Shown: in pieces, positions 92 through 6,439 of the stretch
Position numbering within the stretch: position 1 is the stretch's first letter
Layout: each line of letters starts with the position of its first letter
DNA from: Candidatus Delongbacteria bacterium
GTDB lineage: Bacteria > UBA4055
Direction: 5' to 3'
DNA: 6,463 nucleotides
Assembly: GCA_016937995.1 (NCBI GenBank)
Contig: JAFGVM010000090.1
Coordinates: forward strand, 1 to 6,463
Program-made: the position numbers and the translations under genes
The notes under the pieces: generated by a model
Told to the model about the DNA's origin: nothing
Databases searched by the model: none
The model's input: only the letters and a program-made list of their open reading frames with translations

Positions 92-991
92 CTAATAATC
101 AGGTGAGAGATCAGGTTTGTCTATTCCATATTTCAATTTCAGACTGTCCGTGTATGCTTTCAACTCTGCATCTTCACTGAATTTTACGGAAGTAATTTTT
201 TCAAACATATTTTTGAATCCGACCCCGTCTGCAGTTTTACTGATATCAAGCCTGCCGATTTGCTCCGCACTGCTGCCGTGGCTTAGATAAAGTCTTTTGC
301 CGAACCTGATCATTTCATTTTTCGTGTTTGTATTCGATATCATTATATCAATAGCTTTAACACTATTGAATATTTTTTTCTCAGCCGAACTTTCCAGATT
401 GGATATGACTATAAAAACATCTGCTTCAGCTTTGATCGAATCAGCCAGAATATTCAATTTTTCAAACGAGATATCAGAAATGCCTGAATCAGAGGAGTAT
501 TTTGAATATAACGGATCCGTTATTGACGTAACCGCTAGCGTCAGTCCGTTTCGTTGAAAGAGCTTATGATCTGGAACATCATCTACATTAAATGACGCAG
601 CAGTGTTTTTATCAAGTCTTCTGTAAAAACCTGTCTCGTTCCTTCCTGCAGCAATGTAATCATATCCCAGATCCCCGATTATCTCGAGAATTATCCTGTT
701 TTGTCTGTCTCCGAAATTATAGGAAAAAATATTACCTGTGCAAACATAGATGCTGTTCTTAAAATTAATGATGCTGTCTTTATAAAATGTGACGTGATTA
801 AGAATATTCCCTTCAGGTTCCTTTGGGCAACGGCAGCCTTCGATTATACCATTATAATTCCCGGTGTAGAATAGAGTCATATTTTTAGACGATGAACATC
901 CTGATATCAATATGATAAATGAAAGAAGCAGGATCAACCTGCTTCTTCCAAAATGACAAATATTACTTATTTTATTAATCAAAAAGCTCAT
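92..991 (-). CDS. Lipoprotein with degenerate UshA/5'-nucleotidase-like metallophosphatase fold
   Basis: About 299 residues. A long N-terminus (17-18 residues) and a hydrophobic core end in the lipobox ISGC, giving lipid Cys32. The rest follows the calcineurin-like phosphatase half of UshA: LFYTGNYNG (40-48), then CRCP (53-56) as in the lEPCGCP-type subgroup, VCTGNIF (83-89), YDYIAAGRNE (110-119), NGLTLAVTSITDP (148-160), ADVFIVISNLE (190-200), AIDIMISNTN (213-222), and a closing GRLDIS strand. The substrate-binding C-terminal domain of UshA is absent. At the metal-ligand positions Asp and His are replaced, mostly by Asn, so catalysis is unlikely. The ATG 991 start overlaps the pilQ stop by 17 bases. 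TTG 1000 is an alternative, 6 bases after GAGG, and TTG 1006 opens the frame. Context suggests an outer-membrane or periplasmic accessory of the secretin; function unknown. Confidence 0.82.
   Translation of the reverse strand: MSFLINKISNICHFGRSRLILLLSFIILISGCSSSKNMTLFYTGNYNGIIEGCRCPKEPEGNILNHVTFYKDSIINFKNSIYVCTGNIFSYNFGDRQNRIILEIIGDLGYDYIAAGRNETGFYRRLDKNTAASFNVDDVPDHKLFQRNGLTLAVTSITDPLYSKYSSDSGISDISFEKLNILADSIKAEADVFIVISNLESSAEKKIFNSVKAIDIMISNTNTKNEMIRFGKRLYLSHGSSAEQIGRLDISKTADGVGFKNMFEKITSVKFSEDAELKAYTDSLKLKYGIDKPDLSPDY
921..949 (-). repeat. 12-bp RNA hairpin in the lipoprotein signal-peptide codons
   Basis: In the minus-strand transcript GGAAGAAGCAGG (949-938) pairs with CCTGCTTCTTTC (932-921) around a 5-base loop TTGAT. 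There are eleven Watson-Crick pairs and one G-U. The stem begins 25 bases after the pilQ stop codon and encodes the GRSRLILLLS part of the signal peptide. The bases after it (ATTTATCATA) are not a U-run, so it is not a standard intrinsic terminator. It could slow translation, protect the upstream mRNA end, or attenuate. Confidence 0.7.
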
Positions 992-2339
992 CTTCGTCAA
1001 GAACAACCTCTCCGTCGATCATTATGTAAGGCGTTATCTCAATTATCAGATTAGTAGTTTTCTTCGTTTTAACCTGATGCTGGAAAATATATCCCAGGAA
1101 AGGAATATCTCCAAGAAGAGGAAGTTTGTTCACAGTGAATGTCTCGTCTTCAAGAAGCATACCGCCTATCCTGATTGTCTGTCCGTCACGAACCCTTACT
1201 GTTGTATCTGCCTTTCTTGTTTTGACCCATGGTATCTCTGAATTCGGTCCCACCCATCCGAAAATGGAAGATACTTCTGCTTCAAGTCTTACAGTTATGT
1301 CATTCTCTTCATTGATGATAGGTTTAACTTTAAGTTTAACACCTACTTCTTCTTTCTGAACTGACTGAGTTGAAGTTCCCTGGGTAACTGTTGTTATTGT
1401 ATAAGGAACAATATCGCCAATATGAACATAAGCCTCTTTGTTGTTCAAAGTAGCAATTTCAGGTTCAGCAAGCACAAGAGCATCATTATCTCTGTTCGCA
1501 AAATCAAGGCTCAAAATATATTCCTGACCGATCACTCTGTGCCATACTGTATTAAGTCCGCTGGAAGTTTCATGAAAAGGTGAATTATCCATAAAAGTTA
1601 CATCATCCGAATAATCACCCCCGATATTTCTTACTGGGAAAGATGTGTTATCATAAGTAAAAGTCCATCCGTCTGTATAGTTTCCAGACCAGGTCCCCCA
1701 ATCCTGATAAGCTCCTTCCCTCAAAGTAGTCGTGTAATTATTTATCTTTTCCCATTCAATTCCGTATCTTGCTGAAACATCGTTACCGACTTCTTTTATT
1801 CTTGCTTTAAATAAGACCTGCTGAAGTGGTCTGTCGATCCTGACAAGTACTTTTTCTATCTCCTTTGCCACCTTCGGACTAGCCTGATATATCAGTCTGT
1901 TGCCCAGTTCATCGATCTGAACCATTTTCGATATATCTGCGAGCATGGATTTAGCGGTCTTGGCATCTGCGTACTGAAGATCGAAAACAGAAGTGTTCAG
2001 ACCTATCTCTCTGTCTATCTTCTTTTGCGTAGCAACAATAATCGAGTTATCTATTATCTGATAACTAAGGTCTGTTGCCCTCACCACAAGATCCAAAGCA
2101 TCTTTAATAGGGATCTCGTTCAAAGTTAAAGTAACCTTTTTCCCGATCGTTTCTTCACTCTGTACAAGGTTAACACCGGCTCTCTCGGCAAGAGCATCCA
2201 GCACCTGGGCTACTGACTGATCCAGAGCAGTAAGTGAAATCGGAGTTTTGAAATTGTCCGATGTAGTGTCAAAGAGAAGCTGAGAGCTGAAGACAAGCCC
2301 TGTAAAGACGGTCGTTATCAATACCATAATCCTTTTCAT
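975..2339 (-). CDS. pilQ: Type IV pilus-type outer-membrane secretin PilQ
   Basis: Outer-membrane channel through which the pilus passes. A signal peptide (about 1-20) is followed by an N0/STN domain (about 33-104, LDALAERAGVNLV and the IPIKDALDLVV helix) and an N1 secretin_N domain (about 116-172, VFDLQYADAKTA, then VEKVL-like helix and RIDRPLQQVLFKARI). The secretin domain (about 173-440) has ARYGIEW (190-196), LAEPEIATLNNKEAYVHIGDIVPY (start 290), EEVGVKLKVKP (330-340), RVRDGQTIRIGG (382-393), NKLPLLGDIPFLGYIF (404-419) and the closing LIIEITPYIM (431-440). At 454 residues it is short: there are no AMIN domains and only two N domains. Residues 200-262 form an Asp/Trp/Tyr-rich variable segment. 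The last 12 residues are acidic (VLDEDELFD). The gene overlaps the lipoprotein gene downstream. Type II GspD is less likely because GspD normally has more N domains. Confidence 0.96.
   Translation of the reverse strand: MKRIMVLITTVFTGLVFSSQLLFDTTSDNFKTPISLTALDQSVAQVLDALAERAGVNLVQSEETIGKKVTLTLNEIPIKDALDLVVRATDLSYQIIDNSIIVATQKKIDREIGLNTSVFDLQYADAKTAKSMLADISKMVQIDELGNRLIYQASPKVAKEIEKVLVRIDRPLQQVLFKARIKEVGNDVSARYGIEWEKINNYTTTLREGAYQDWGTWSGNYTDGWTFTYDNTSFPVRNIGGDYSDDVTFMDNSPFHETSSGLNTVWHRVIGQEYILSLDFANRDNDALVLAEPEIATLNNKEAYVHIGDIVPYTITTVTQGTSTQSVQKEEVGVKLKVKPIINEENDITVRLEAEVSSIFGWVGPNSEIPWVKTRKADTTVRVRDGQTIRIGGMLLEDETFTVNKLPLLGDIPFLGYIFQHQVKTKKTTNLIIEITPYIMIDGEVVLDEDELFD
1007..1014 (-). promoter_or_regulatory. 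Purine-rich ribosome binding site inside the end of pilQ
   Basis: The stretch ending in GGAGAGG, within the last pilQ codons, lies 6 bases before TTG 1000 and 15 bases before ATG 991. Spacing favours the TTG and codon preference favours the ATG; both keep the same lipoprotein frame and lipobox. Translation of the lipoprotein is probably coupled to that of the secretin. Confidence 0.45.
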
Positions 2340-2395: not shown

Positions 2396-3091
2396 TTATC
2401 TTCCCGGCCTTGGTATTCTTCTGCCCGGCACATCACCTCCCTGAGGAGTATCCTGATTTTCCTGGCCTGAAGTAGCTTCCATAAGATTTCTTGCATAATA
2501 GTCTCCGTCAATGCCCGGTCGAAATCTTACGACCCTGTTCTTATCCTCAGTATTTACATAAACAGATCGTTCAGTTATTGATAATATGTCACCCAGATAC
2601 TCACTTCCGGTTCTGGTGTTGCCTGTTGACTGGTTGGTTCCTGAGACTACCTGTTTCTGTATCTTTTTTCCGATAGCAATCTTATCTCCAACCTTAAACT
2701 CCTGTGTTTTGCCGTTAATGCTGAATCTTGCCTTGCCGTCAAAAAAAAGTGAGAATGAAACTACATCCCTTGTATATAACTCAAGTTCGTTTGTATTTAT
2801 CCACGAATACTGTATCTGAGGAGTATTGTCAGTTTCATGTACAACATCGATCTTTTTTTTCTCAATAATCTTGAAATTGAATATATCTCTTATTTTTTGA
2901 GCTTCAGCTTTTGAAAATTTTGTTATTATAGTGTCAGTTATAAGCACGCTGTCCTTACTTAATTTATATATCTCAGAAATTCTTGAAGAATCAGTATCTT
3001 GTTTTATCGTAATCAAAAGGTATGCCATGATCAGAACACAGATTGAGGAGATTATTATTATAGATATTTGCTGCTTTGAAAAATTCTTCAT
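2396..3091 (-). CDS. pilP: PilP/GspC-like periplasmic linker, membrane-anchored
   Basis: A 231-residue protein in the pilP position between pilO and the secretin gene. An N-terminal membrane helix (about 9-28) is followed by a helical segment containing KIRDIFNF (66-73), reminiscent of the RDPF-type motif at the start of PilP proteins. A beta-rich domain (about 108-192) follows, with FSINGKTQEFKVGDKIAIG, a Gly/Ser/Thr loop, LGDILSITERSVYVN and VVRFRPG. This is the order of strands in the PilP/GspC homology-region fold that binds the secretin N0 domain. The tail (208-231) is rich in Gly, Pro and Arg and probably unstructured. There is no lipobox: PilP is usually a lipoprotein of about 175 residues, whereas this one is anchored by a helix as in GspC. 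AAGGTGG (3108-3102) precedes the start. Family assignment is by fold pattern and position, and is the weakest of the five pil calls. Confidence 0.7.
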   Translation of the reverse strand: MKNFSKQQISIIIISSICVLIMAYLLITIKQDTDSSRISEIYKLSKDSVLITDTIITKFSKAEAQKIRDIFNFKIIEKKKIDVVHETDNTPQIQYSWINTNELELYTRDVVSFSLFFDGKARFSINGKTQEFKVGDKIAIGKKIQKQVVSGTNQSTGNTRTGSEYLGDILSITERSVYVNTEDKNRVVRFRPGIDGDYYARNLMEATSGQENQDTPQGGDVPGRRIPRPGR

Positions 3092-3109: not shown

Positions 3110-3688
3110 TTATAAGAATTTCACGAATTCAAGTCGTATATCACACTGAATAGTACTTTTTACATTGAATTCATCAAAATCGTCTTTTTCTAATGTATCC
3201 ATATTTTTTGGTGCAGAAACCTTGTTTCTATTAATTCTTAACGCAGCAATATTTATCACATGATCACTTTTTTCAATTCTGTTAATAAAATCTCTCATCT
3301 GGTCGTAACCAGTCTCAAAACTCATTATTATAATAAAAGTTGCCGTTCCTGATTTTGGATCATTTATTTCATTCGGGTCCTGATTTATCCTATTTGCCTC
3401 ATAAGTAATCTTTGAGTCTTTCAGCATATTCTCTACAACGCCCAATAGCTCAACTATTATATCCCCGTATGAGCTTGATCCTCTCTTATTAATTTCATAT
3501 TTTGCCTTAATGTTTGAAATGTTGTTTTGAATAAATACATCCCTGTTGTATTTTTCCATTAGTATTTTATTCTCTGAAGAAACAGAAGCTGTTTCGTTTA
3601 TTGAATCTGCAAGGAAAAAAAATCTGTAAACTAAACCCAGCACTAACAGAATTACGGGCACTATGATATAAATAATGTTTTTCTGCAT
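3110..3688 (-). CDS. pilO: Type IV pilus alignment protein PilO
   Basis: Bitopic inner-membrane protein of 192 residues, matching PilO/GspM size and layout. One membrane helix (about 5-26) is followed by a helical linker (about 30-90) and a C-terminal ferredoxin-like domain. In that domain a strand (ATFIIIMSF, 116-124), a helix (YDQMRDFINRIEKS, 128-141), a strand (VINIAALRI, 144-152) and a final strand (IQCDIRLEFVKF, 180-191) reproduce the PilO pattern. PilO heterodimerises with PilN and contacts PilP in the periplasm. The start is only 2 bases after the pilN stop codon, and the AGG for pilO lies inside the last pilN codons, so the two are probably translationally coupled, as expected for heterodimer partners. 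Confidence 0.86.
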   Translation of the reverse strand: MQKNIIYIIVPVILLVLGLVYRFFFLADSINETASVSSENKILMEKYNRDVFIQNNISNIKAKYEINKRGSSSYGDIIVELLGVVENMLKDSKITYEANRINQDPNEINDPKSGTATFIIIMSFETGYDQMRDFINRIEKSDHVINIAALRINRNKVSAPKNMDTLEKDDFDEFNVKSTIQCDIRLEFVKFL

Positions 3689-3690
3689 TT

Positions 3691-4290
3691 CTATTTACCT
3701 TTTGCCAAGTTATTGACTCTATCTGGGATTTTCAGATTGAAAACAAAAGACCAATATGTGAACTCTTCAAACTGTTTTCTGATATCGGGTCCTTTAACTA
3801 ATGTCAGATTGTTTTTATCGCAAATTCCGTAGCTTATAAGTTTACCTTCCACTCTATCCTTGAAAGTAATTATCCAAGACATGAGTTGTGATTTAACATT
3901 AGAACTTCTTGAGATAAAAGTAATTTCAATAAAATTCTCTTCATACTGAAAATTGTTTAAAATAACTGTTGAATCCATTGAGGATTCGAATTCCTGAAAA
4001 ACATCAGAAATCTTTTTTCTTTTTGTCATGGAATTATACATATTCTGAGAAAGCCGGTAATTAAAATAATCTTTTGATCTAAGTTCCTTTATCCTGCTGT
4101 TAATCTCCTCATTTGCTTCTTTTGCAAGTCTGTTATCAGTGTTGACACTTAGACCAAACAGATATAACAACCCAAGAAGAAGAAGCATTACTGAGCTGAA
4201 GCATATAAACAGCAGCCTTATGAAGTTGTCTCTTTTCCTGGCTTCATACTTTTCCTGATTGATCTTGTTTAGAAAATTAAATTTGTACAT
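3691..4290 (-). CDS. pilN: Type IV pilus alignment protein PilN
   Basis: Bitopic inner-membrane protein of 199 residues, the usual PilN size. A short cytoplasmic N-terminus with FNFLNKI (4-10) sits where PilN proteins carry the INLLP-type PilM-binding peptide; the Leu-Leu-Pro core is replaced here by Phe-Leu-Asn. A basic stretch (14-20) and one membrane helix (about 24-46) follow. A charged coiled-coil-like segment (about 52-75) leads into a ferredoxin-like periplasmic domain (about 105-190) that in the family pairs with PilO. Overall identity to well-known PilN proteins looks low, so the call rests on topology, size and gene order as much as on sequence. It starts 20 bases after pilM, with GGA 5 bases before the ATG, and its last codons contain the pilO ribosome binding site. 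A GspL C-terminal-like piece of a type II system is the alternative. Confidence 0.85.
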   Translation of the reverse strand: MYKFNFLNKINQEKYEARKRDNFIRLLFICFSSVMLLLLGLLYLFGLSVNTDNRLAKEANEEINSRIKELRSKDYFNYRLSQNMYNSMTKRKKISDVFQEFESSMDSTVILNNFQYEENFIEITFISRSSNVKSQLMSWIITFKDRVEGKLISYGICDKNNLTLVKGPDIRKQFEEFTYWSFVFNLKIPDRVNNLAKGK

Positions 4291-4310: not shown

Positions 4311-5675
4311 TTATTCATATCTCAAAGCCAGACCGATAGCTACATATGCAACACTTTCTTTTTCCTTGGCATAATCCAAAACACTTGAATCACCCCTGAA
4401 GAATCCGGCAACATCAAGATTTTCGCAGGGTATATCAGTGTTCTTGTTGATGAACTGGGCGAATTTATTCATCTCCAGAGCCTTGCCTGTAATGTATATC
4501 TTTGAAGGAATTTTGTTCTGGTTCTGCTGCGCATAGTACTGAAAGGTCTTCTGAAGCTCTCTGAGCAGCTGCATCCTGACATACTTTTTTACTGAAAAAT
4601 GCTGATTCAGATTTTCTGTTGTTTCCTGTTCGAATGCACTGGTTATGTAATCGTAAAAATTCCTGTTCCTTATCATTTCTTCAGTTTCTGCAGGAGAAAT
4701 ATCTCTGTTTCTCTGAAGTGTTTTTTTGAAGACATTATAGGTAAAATCAATATTTCTGATGTAAAGCTCTTCACTGCCGCTTGGTATTATCATTATGTGA
4801 GAAAAGTCCATTCCTATGTCAATAACGCAGGATACTGTACCTTTCGGCGGTCTTACAGATTCATTATACAGGTTTACTATCGCTATTTTGTCAATATCAA
4901 GTATTTTACACTCCACTCCCGTAAGCGTTAACATTCCCTGAACAGAAAAGAACGTGCTCCCGTCAGAGACAGCTGCGAGGATATCATGATTCATTCCGTC
5001 AGAATTTAAAAGTATGTATTCATAACGGCTCATGACGTCAAAAGGGGATTTTACTATAGAAGGAAGTTCTTTCTCAATATTCTCCACGGGCGTATTCTGG
5101 ACATATAGCTGTTTAACAATAACGTTCGTACCGTTCAGCGACGTTACTATGAGAGGATCGTTTTTAGCGACGCCAGCCCTTACAAAAACTTTATCGATCG
5201 CATCGATCTGCTGCTCTTTTATTACCTGATCCGGATCTTTTTTATCCTTAAAAACGTTATCCTCTGTGATCTGTGGAGGCTCAATCGGGATGACCTGCAG
5301 ATTAGTAAGCCTGTAATTTATTCCGTCAAACTCAGTTTGAGCAAAGACCACATTATCTTTTGTTATATGAAGCGCATTAACCCTGCTTTTTTTTGCAGAT
5401 GCGGAAACAGAGGGACTTTTATCTGAACTGGTATCCTTTGAAGTCTTTTCGATTATTTTAAGGTCCTCTCCAATATCCGCAGGTCTCGAAGGCGGCACCT
5501 GTGCGTTGGGGACTTCAGAAAAAATATTTCTTCCTATGCTCTTTGGAGACGCGTCACTTTTCTTCGGTGTTTCCTGTGATTTTTTATCAGTCTTATTCTT
5601 AAAAAAATCAGACTGATTTTCTGCGAAAATGTTCCTTCCTATACTCTTTGATTCTCTGCTCGGATCGTTTGCCAT
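4311..5675 (-). CDS. pilM: Type IV pilus inner-membrane platform protein PilM, with long N-terminal tail
   Basis: Actin/FtsA-like cytoplasmic protein that binds the PilN N-terminus and couples the pilus motor to the alignment complex. The body (about 98-454) matches PilM length and order: RVNALHIT (98-105) sits where phosphate-1 belongs; SHS2-like region with PLIVTSLNGTNVIVKQLYV (174-192) and SPFD (210-213); VIDIGMDFS (284-292) as phosphate-2; YIRNIDF (305-311); YITGKALEM (394-402) at the adenosine motif; and the PilM-like end AIGLALR. Residues 1-97 are an extra Ser/Lys/Pro-rich, probably disordered extension carrying KSIGRNIFAE (10-19) and KSIGRNIFSE (45-54). The usual acidic residue of phosphate-1 (D/EIG) is HIT here, and the adenosine GGG is GKA, so ATP binding may be weakened or lost. 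The gene starts 22 bases after the ParA stop, with a weak GGGA upstream of ATG 5675. It could belong to a type II-like system, but the MNOPQ order favours a pilus. Confidence 0.9.
   Translation of the reverse strand: MANDPSRESKSIGRNIFAENQSDFFKNKTDKKSQETPKKSDASPKSIGRNIFSEVPNAQVPPSRPADIGEDLKIIEKTSKDTSSDKSPSVSASAKKSRVNALHITKDNVVFAQTEFDGINYRLTNLQVIPIEPPQITEDNVFKDKKDPDQVIKEQQIDAIDKVFVRAGVAKNDPLIVTSLNGTNVIVKQLYVQNTPVENIEKELPSIVKSPFDVMSRYEYILLNSDGMNHDILAAVSDGSTFFSVQGMLTLTGVECKILDIDKIAIVNLYNESVRPPKGTVSCVIDIGMDFSHIMIIPSGSEELYIRNIDFTYNVFKKTLQRNRDISPAETEEMIRNRNFYDYITSAFEQETTENLNQHFSVKKYVRMQLLRELQKTFQYYAQQNQNKIPSKIYITGKALEMNKFAQFINKNTDIPCENLDVAGFFRGDSSVLDYAKEKESVAYVAIGLALRYE
5514..5543 (-). repeat. PilM tail motif, copy 2 (KSIGRNIFSE)
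   Basis: Second copy, residues 45-54. Over the eight core codons it differs from copy 1 at four third positions (Ser AGC/AGT, Arg AGA/AGG, Asn AAT/AAC, Phe TTT/TTC), all synonymous. The protein motif is therefore kept although the DNA has drifted, which suggests a functional binding peptide. Confidence 0.85.
5619..5648 (-). repeat. PilM tail motif, copy 1 (KSIGRNIFAE)
   Basis: First copy of a ten-residue motif in the disordered PilM tail, residues 10-19. It is preceded by Ser and followed by an acidic residue. Copy 2 lies 35 residues further on. The eight-residue core KSIGRNIF is identical between copies. Confidence 0.85.
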
Positions 5676-5697: not shown

Positions 5698-6432
5698 TTA
5701 TCTGCTGTCAACTTCATTTGCGAGCTTGAAATAATCTTGAGCGCCCCATGAATCCGGTGCATACTCAAATATAGTTTTCATAAAGCTCGGTGCTTCTTTA
5801 AGGCTGACATCTTCTCTGATGTAGGTGTTAAACAGTTTCTCTCTAAAGAAGTCCTTTAGAATCGCGACCGTTTCGAGAGATATCTTTCTTTTTTCGTTGT
5901 AGTAAACAGGCAGCACACCCAGAATATCAAGGTTTTTATTATACGATTTGCTGACGCTGTCAATCATGCCCAGGATCTGATTAGCTCCGATCTGAGAAAG
6001 AAAATCCATCGATATGGGTATAACTACTTCATCGCAGTAAGTCAGAACATTTACATTGATAAGATTAATAGACGGCGCACAGTCGACGATCACATAATCC
6101 ACACCTTCAAGATGTGAAAGATTCTTTTTGAGCTTATATTCCTTACCCCATGTCTTCGTCATTTTTACTTCTGTATCGACAAGATATTTACCGCCTGAAG
6201 TGATAACATGAAGTTTTTCCCGGACTTTGACTATTGATGCTCTCCTTTTAAGTAAAAGATCGCACAGAGTTTTTTCCGGATTGACGTTGAACACGATCCC
6301 GATCGTGTTTTGAGGATCGCTGTCAATAAGGAGAACACTTCTTCCCATCAACGCTAACCCGTGAGCAAGATTGATCGAAGTAGTGGTCTTTCCGGTGCCG
6401 CCCTTTGAAGATAAAATCGCAATTTTACGCAT
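5698..6432 (-). CDS. ParA/Soj-type partition ATPase heading a pilus operon
   Basis: P-loop ATPase of the ParA/MinD (SIMIBI) family, probably a nucleoid- or membrane-patterning ATPase. Counting from a TTG two codons upstream of the chosen ATG, the deviant Walker A KGGTGKTT is at 12-19 with the signature Lys12, the switch I-like DSDPQ at 39-43, and Walker B VIVDCAPS at 116-123. The C-terminal half has the usual Soj layout: a GVLPVYYNEKRKIS stretch, a REDVSLKEAPS block, and the ending SWGAQDYFKLANEV. At about 245 residues it is a normal-length Soj-like protein without an N-terminal DNA-binding domain. It has no obvious MinD-type C-terminal amphipathic helix. I chose ATG 6432 because an AGG (6442-6440) lies 7 bases upstream; the in-frame TTG at 6438 is almost on top of that AGG. 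No parB follows. Relatives such as FlhG and TadZ/CpaE place polar machines, so a role in positioning the pilus is inferred from context. Chromosome or plasmid partition is the alternative. Confidence 0.95.
   Translation of the reverse strand: MRKIAILSSKGGTGKTTTSINLAHGLALMGRSVLLIDSDPQNTIGIVFNVNPEKTLCDLLLKRRASIVKVREKLHVITSGGKYLVDTEVKMTKTWGKEYKLKKNLSHLEGVDYVIVDCAPSINLINVNVLTYCDEVVIPISMDFLSQIGANQILGMIDSVSKSYNKNLDILGVLPVYYNEKRKISLETVAILKDFFREKLFNTYIREDVSLKEAPSFMKTIFEYAPDSWGAQDYFKLANEVDSR
6290..6309. repeat. Interrupted palindrome, 9-bp arms, inside the ParA gene
   Basis: On the plus strand AACACGATC (6290-6298) and GATCGTGTT (6301-6309) are perfect inverted repeats separated by CC. The dyad lies at codons encoding the NTIGIVF stretch after the DSDPQ motif. 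Its form resembles an operator or partition site, but it is within coding sequence and no binding protein is identified. Confidence 0.5.
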
Positions 6433-6439
6433 AATCAAA

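Follow-up and report, generated by a model that had tools for sequence, protein, structure and literature searches.

A UshA-like protein without metal ligands, encoded beside pilQ in Candidatus Delongbacteria, retains a Cys-x-Cys motif

What does a protein built on the domain of a 5'-nucleotidase do beside a pilus secretin when the residues expected to hold its metals have been replaced? The question is raised by the gene at 92..991 (minus strand) of the window analysed here, which is one whole contig of 6463 bases (G000:C38) from a 2.75-Mb assembly, with its main genes all on the minus strand. In a scan of named genomes its relatives fall in Candidatus Delongbacteria, UBA4055 among them. The gene is annotated as encoding a putative UshA-like pseudoenzyme lipoprotein. 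Its frame is free of internal stops and comprises 299 codons from the ATG at 991 (92-991) or 304 codons from a TTG (92-1006), the in-frame TTG codons at 1006 and 1000 being possible alternative starts; residues of the protein are numbered from the ATG at 991 throughout. By inspection, the protein has a lipoprotein signal with its cysteine (LISG-C32-S), a trait of secretin pilotins, and the lipobox Cys32 (896..898, minus strand) is invariant among the pilQ-linked Cys-form copies compared. The product is predicted to be an outer-membrane-type lipoprotein, lipidated and placed at the outer membrane, with the sorting read from the serine at position +2, a proteobacterial rule of thumb.

The pil operon and the origin of the contig

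The cluster to which the gene belongs lies on the minus strand and is headed by a ParA/MinD-family ATPase gene (5698..6438), followed by a pilM-like gene (4311..5675), genes in the pilN (3691..4290) and pilO (3110..3688) positions, both assigned by order alone, a gene in the pilP position (2396..3091), likewise assigned by order and with no family match, and the gene for a pilQ-like secretin (975..2339), whose 3' end overlaps the focal gene by 17 nt. The pilus linkage claimed in the preliminary description extends to all 12 testable Delongbacteria genomes, those whose contig continues past pilQ, where a UshA-like gene adjoins pilQ downstream with frames overlapping or touching. The order parA-pilMNOPQ-UshA-like-gcvPB recurs in UBA4055, SZUA-455 (partly) and G007, and with one extra gene on a second contig of the same assembly (G000:C21); gcvPB is directly next to the UshA-like gene in the first three and separated from it by one gene in C21. 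This extra gene (L006:10567-11619) encodes 350 aa with weak LPP20/LipL46-like matches only, and is not at the corresponding place in UBA4055. A further 19 family loci, almost all of them outside the phylum, had nothing resembling pilQ or PilM in flanks of 1.5 kb; a general linkage to pilQ beyond Delongbacteria was therefore rejected, and the pilus linkage is regarded as lineage-specific. Our literature search found no paper joining a nucleotidase-like lipoprotein with pilQ.

Contig C21 carries a second pil cluster with a UshA-like gene, while pilQ is single in each of the other 12 Delongbacteria genomes examined. C38 aligns with UBA4055 end to end at the DNA level (83.5% identity, with PilQ 94% identical), and its GC3 of 0.37 matches that of UBA4055 (0.39) rather than that of C21 (0.27). 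These findings make it doubtful that the C38 gene and the C21 cluster are true paralogues within one genome. C38 most probably entered the assembly by mis-binning from a UBA4055-like species, with recent transfer as the alternative; the question leaves the focal gene itself unaffected. Divergence along the operon is uneven, the ParA-like proteins of C38 and UBA4055 (window 5698-6438 vs L052:548-1285) sharing 99.6% identity at a dS of 0.3, compared with a dS of 1.2 for pilQ, which may reflect either recombination or strong constraint on synonymous sites.

Loss of the metal site in a conserved fold

An AlphaFold2 model of the protein, built from a 5-sequence alignment (mean pLDDT 67, pTM 0.72), resembles the metallophosphatase domains of 5'-nucleotidases and SoxB over residues ~34–296, far above chance in Foldseek and VIA comparisons (VIA Z 21.4 to 3ivd and 20.9 to SoxB 2wdf; Foldseek E 4e-13). 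With best matches of this kind at Z ~21, structure prediction agrees with the UshA-like fold proposed earlier, and the domain fold characteristic of UshA and other 5'-nucleotidases is present in the predicted structure. The C-terminal nucleotidase domain is absent, as the protein stops at 299 aa just past the first domain with no second-domain Pfam match; Pfam Metallophos also gave no match in the protein.

Ligand positions were read from profile alignments, residue by residue, against 3ivd and against paralogues that are less decayed, using D41, H43, D84, N116, H117, H217, H252 and H/Q254 in E. coli UshA numbering. All eight positions of the dinuclear site (ligands D, H, D, N, H, H and H/Q, plus the catalytic His) are substituted. 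On the minus strand, N45-Y46-N47 (851..859) replaces the D-x-H ligands, with N45 at D41 and N47 at H43; N87 (731..733) replaces the bridging Asp, D84; R117-N118 (638..643) replaces the metal ligand Asn116 and the catalytic His117, respectively; N198 (398..400) replaces His217; and N220-T221-N222-T223 (323..334) replaces G-H-x-H/Q, placing Thr221 at H252 and Thr223 at H/Q254. The residues quoted in the preliminary description sit where it had placed them, and the ligand loss it reported is borne out for seven of seven metal ligands and the catalytic His. Its reading of GHxH as SNTN (219-222) was one residue early, since the residue six past D215 is His in UshA, SoxB and the paralogues, and the motif aligns instead to NTNT (220-223). 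The His ligands are lost in either register, but with the shift H252 is Thr, and the statement that most ligands became Asn holds for four of the seven plus the catalytic His, fewer than had been implied. From this alignment, the UshA/SoxB-like domain of the focal protein should no longer bind its metals and would not be a nucleotidase.

The bias towards Asn is less telling than its appearance. Finding at least five Asn in eight site positions has p ~1.4e-4 given the 7.9% Asn of the protein, a value that flatters the pattern because a single base change turns either Asp (GAY) or His (CAY) into Asn, and the substitutions are in part those neutral ones that mutation reaches most easily. Conservation and selection provide the stronger facts. 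N45, N87, N118 and N198 are invariant among eight orthologues with identity down to 37%, as are E51, C53, C55 and P56, and dN/dS against the UBA4055 and STF1_163 orthologues is 0.11–0.13 at dS 0.7–1.2. These four Asn and a dN/dS of ~0.13 indicate that the gene is not decaying, and the low dN/dS together with open-frame orthologues in eight genomes rules out random decay or a pseudogene, as had been argued from the frame and the substitution pattern. Taken together, the site columns exceed the rest of the protein in conservation by a modest margin only, with four of eight invariant versus 19% overall (hypergeometric p 0.047), a count unaffected by the register correction.

The Cys-x-Cys/Sec motif and its family

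Past the lost D-x-H strand end lies C53-R-C55-P (824..835, minus strand), whose second Cys aligns with the selenocysteine (Sec, TGA) of paralogues. By this alignment, the CxCP reads as the Cys form of the known Cys-x-Sec motif of the UshA-like (seleno)proteins, an identity overlooked when the motif was first pointed out. The focal protein is a remote homologue of this family (NF041198; 41.3 bits, cut-off 275, E 7e-11), and scores 18 bits against TIGR04486 (SoxB; cut-off 550). UshA-like (seleno)proteins have been on selenoprotein lists since at least 2008 (PMC2398784) and are recorded as CxU in selenoprotein surveys (PMC2398784, PMC13188914); our literature search found no function for them. 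The geometry of the CxCP loop (residues 47–61) is not given by the AlphaFold2 model because its pLDDT is <50.

Delongbacteria contain several kinds of these proteins. Kind A, which includes the focal protein, is pilQ-linked, of the Cys form and metal-free, and is found in eight genomes; kind B is pilQ-linked and of the Cys form and retains D84, H217 and H252 (G000:C21, G001 and G002); kind Sm is the Sec form, whose in-frame TGA falls exactly at Cys55 and which, in G000, has mltG as its downstream neighbour. Homologues of kinds A and B share the pilQ adjacency, and those of kind A share the metal-free site; the sister pilQ-linked kind B keeps three ligands. A Sec form also stands right after pilQ in the deep-branching G007 and G004, the G004 contig ending soon after the start of the gene (L028 / L066, G004:C56). 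The G007 copy (L018 / L065:6801-8030, G007:C83) has Sec, no metal ligands and four CxxCH haem motifs, which also occur in NF041198 relatives, and these motifs are a possible link between the pilus secretin and electron transfer. The tree groups A, B and the G007 copy in a single pilQ-linked clade (100/99) that excludes Sm and the members outside the phylum. As in G007, the ancestor probably stood beside pilQ and was a UshA-like protein with Sec and a haem tail; the focal lineage would then have lost Sec, haem tail and metals while retaining its scaffold and both cysteines.

A UshA-like gene in which a single in-frame TGA takes the place of the second CxCP cysteine (CGUP) was observed at L009:1453-2334 (G000:C63), L020, L034, L035, L036 and L037 and is conserved in most Delongbacteria; in four of six aligned copies the His ligands are replaced as well (by Asn, Ser or Gln) with Sec retained. 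L023 (G037:C36), from outside the phylum, encodes a Sec-containing UshA-like PCGU protein (EPCGU) that carries a four-haem tail. SelB scored above cut-off in 11 and tRNA-Sec was found in 10 of 13 Delongbacteria genomes. A SECIS check of the mltG-linked Sec copies gave a stem-loop with a GGUC-type loop past the TGA, with weak and mixed z-scores and an overlap with a conserved GGLAER peptide.

Across 25 family members, D84 is retained in 14, H217 in 10 and H252 in 9, with at least six changes between loss and retention of this triad on the tree, and D41 and H43 are each retained in 2 of 24 members of the CxC/U family, in agreement with the earlier suggestion that the CxCP subgroup already had weakened metal sites. 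In contrast, both C-x-C/U positions are retained in 24/24 rows covering them, although 'never lost' is valid within the CxC/U family only, since rows were collected by similarity as family members, and the hits L022 and L029, which have no CxC, were left out as being ordinary UshA proteins. Repeated change of the triad against an unbroken motif indicates that the family can do without the phosphatase centre but not without the Cys/Sec motif. As the only site feature never lost, the CxC/U motif, more than the Asn set, is likely to be the functional core on a dead-phosphatase scaffold, and the finding is slightly better than first described, because the CxCP, then mentioned in passing, is its most informative part. 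With the metal centre lost and the two-cysteine motif kept, the role of the focal protein is probably binding or redox chemistry rather than phosphate cutting.

Candidate roles and known systems

We favour, at about an even chance, a secretin-associated lipoprotein pseudoenzyme that acts through its scaffold and CxC pair with the PilQ-like secretin. After export, the protein would be lipidated at Cys32 and located at the inner face of the outer membrane, beside the PilQ-like secretin encoded just upstream. The old active-site cleft and the CxC pair (a disulfide/dithiol or a thiol-metal centre) would be the working parts, binding the secretin or pilus machine or maintaining its redox state, and the lipoprotein would thereby serve as a pilotin-like or gate-like accessory factor. 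VPS29, in which a metallophosphatase scaffold works independently of metals (PMC3101248), is a precedent for this reading. Contact with PilQ is what we infer here, and gene adjacency can also reflect operon history. The preliminary description had proposed binding to a ligand, peptidoglycan or the secretin, each of them a putative target.

It is possible, if somewhat unlikely, that the protein is a redox enzyme, or one that transfers electrons, and has the pil operon as its only tie to the pilus genes, with CxC/CxU as its active centre, electrons passing to the haem tail (in G007-like forms) or to another carrier (in Cys forms), and PilQ as either a neighbour or an electron route to the surface. 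Sec at the second Cys in relatives, the four CxxCH motifs of the pilQ-linked G007 copy and of NF041198 relatives, and an invariant Cys pair in a family listed as a CxU selenoprotein (PMC2398784, PMC13188914) all speak for such a role, whereas the haem tail is absent from the focal protein and from all Cys-form pilQ-linked copies, and in the 2008 survey UshA-like proteins were not placed with the families that have conserved Cys redox motifs (PMC2398784). More speculative, and on balance doubtful, is a fuller account in which the protein is a new kind of secretin partner, a dead metallophosphatase whose centre is a thiol (ancestrally a selenol) and which governs how the type IV pilus secretin is assembled or redox-gated, having descended from a haem-linked UshA-like selenoprotein at the same operon position.

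We consider it decidedly unlikely that the protein is a binding scaffold in the manner of VPS29, its dead cleft with conserved Asn binding a peptide, a glycan, a nucleotide-like ligand or PilQ and its CxC forming a structural disulfide. The four invariant Asn and the purifying selection are consistent with this role, and in VPS29 a metallophosphatase fold has been tested in the role of a metal-independent scaffold (PMC3101248), but a structural disulfide alone leaves Sec at the same place in relatives unexplained, and invariance extends to no more than half of the site columns (p 0.047). An enzyme still active through a different metal centre, made of the CxC pair and remaining polar residues, is very improbable, since, although Cys/Sec directly past the lost D41/H43 strand end could replace these ligands and kind B and some Sec copies retain D84/H217/H252, the focal clade has no Asp or His fixed across it at any ligand position.

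The UshA-like (seleno)protein family is already known, while its pilQ-linked metal-free branch and the repeated loss of metals against an invariant CxC/U appear undescribed in the literature searched. The Delongbacteria series, in which phosphatase metals are lost repeatedly and Cys-x-Cys/Sec stays, suggests that it is the thiol/selenol motif that does the work; the pil operon supplies one lineage of the family with a concrete candidate partner, and the protein would be a further case, from bacteria, of a metallophosphatase fold put to non-enzymatic use. With NF041198 the focal protein shares an N-terminal UshA-like domain, a Cys-x-Cys/Sec-Pro past the first strand (C53-R-C55-P ~ CGUP) and a weakened metal site, but it has Cys rather than Sec, lacks the multihaem C-terminal domain, has lost the last metal ligands and is a putative pilQ-adjacent lipoprotein. 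The domain fold is shared with UshA and c4898 (3ivd) over residues 34-293 at Z ~21, without the seven ligands, the catalytic His and the C-terminal substrate-binding domain, and equally with the SoxB thiosulfohydrolases (2wdf, 4uwq; Z ~21), whose substrate is a sulfur-carrier cysteine; relative to SoxB, the metal site is lost, the SoxYZ context is absent and the sequence match is weak. The secretin pilotins (PilF/PilW/Tgl, GspS and TadD) resemble the predicted lipoprotein in being of the outer-membrane type and encoded with a secretin, and the known ones have folds other than that of the focal protein. VPS29 is alike in its use of the fold as a rigid scaffold without catalysis (PMC3101248), but is a eukaryotic retromer subunit rather than a close relative, and retains vestigial metal binding.
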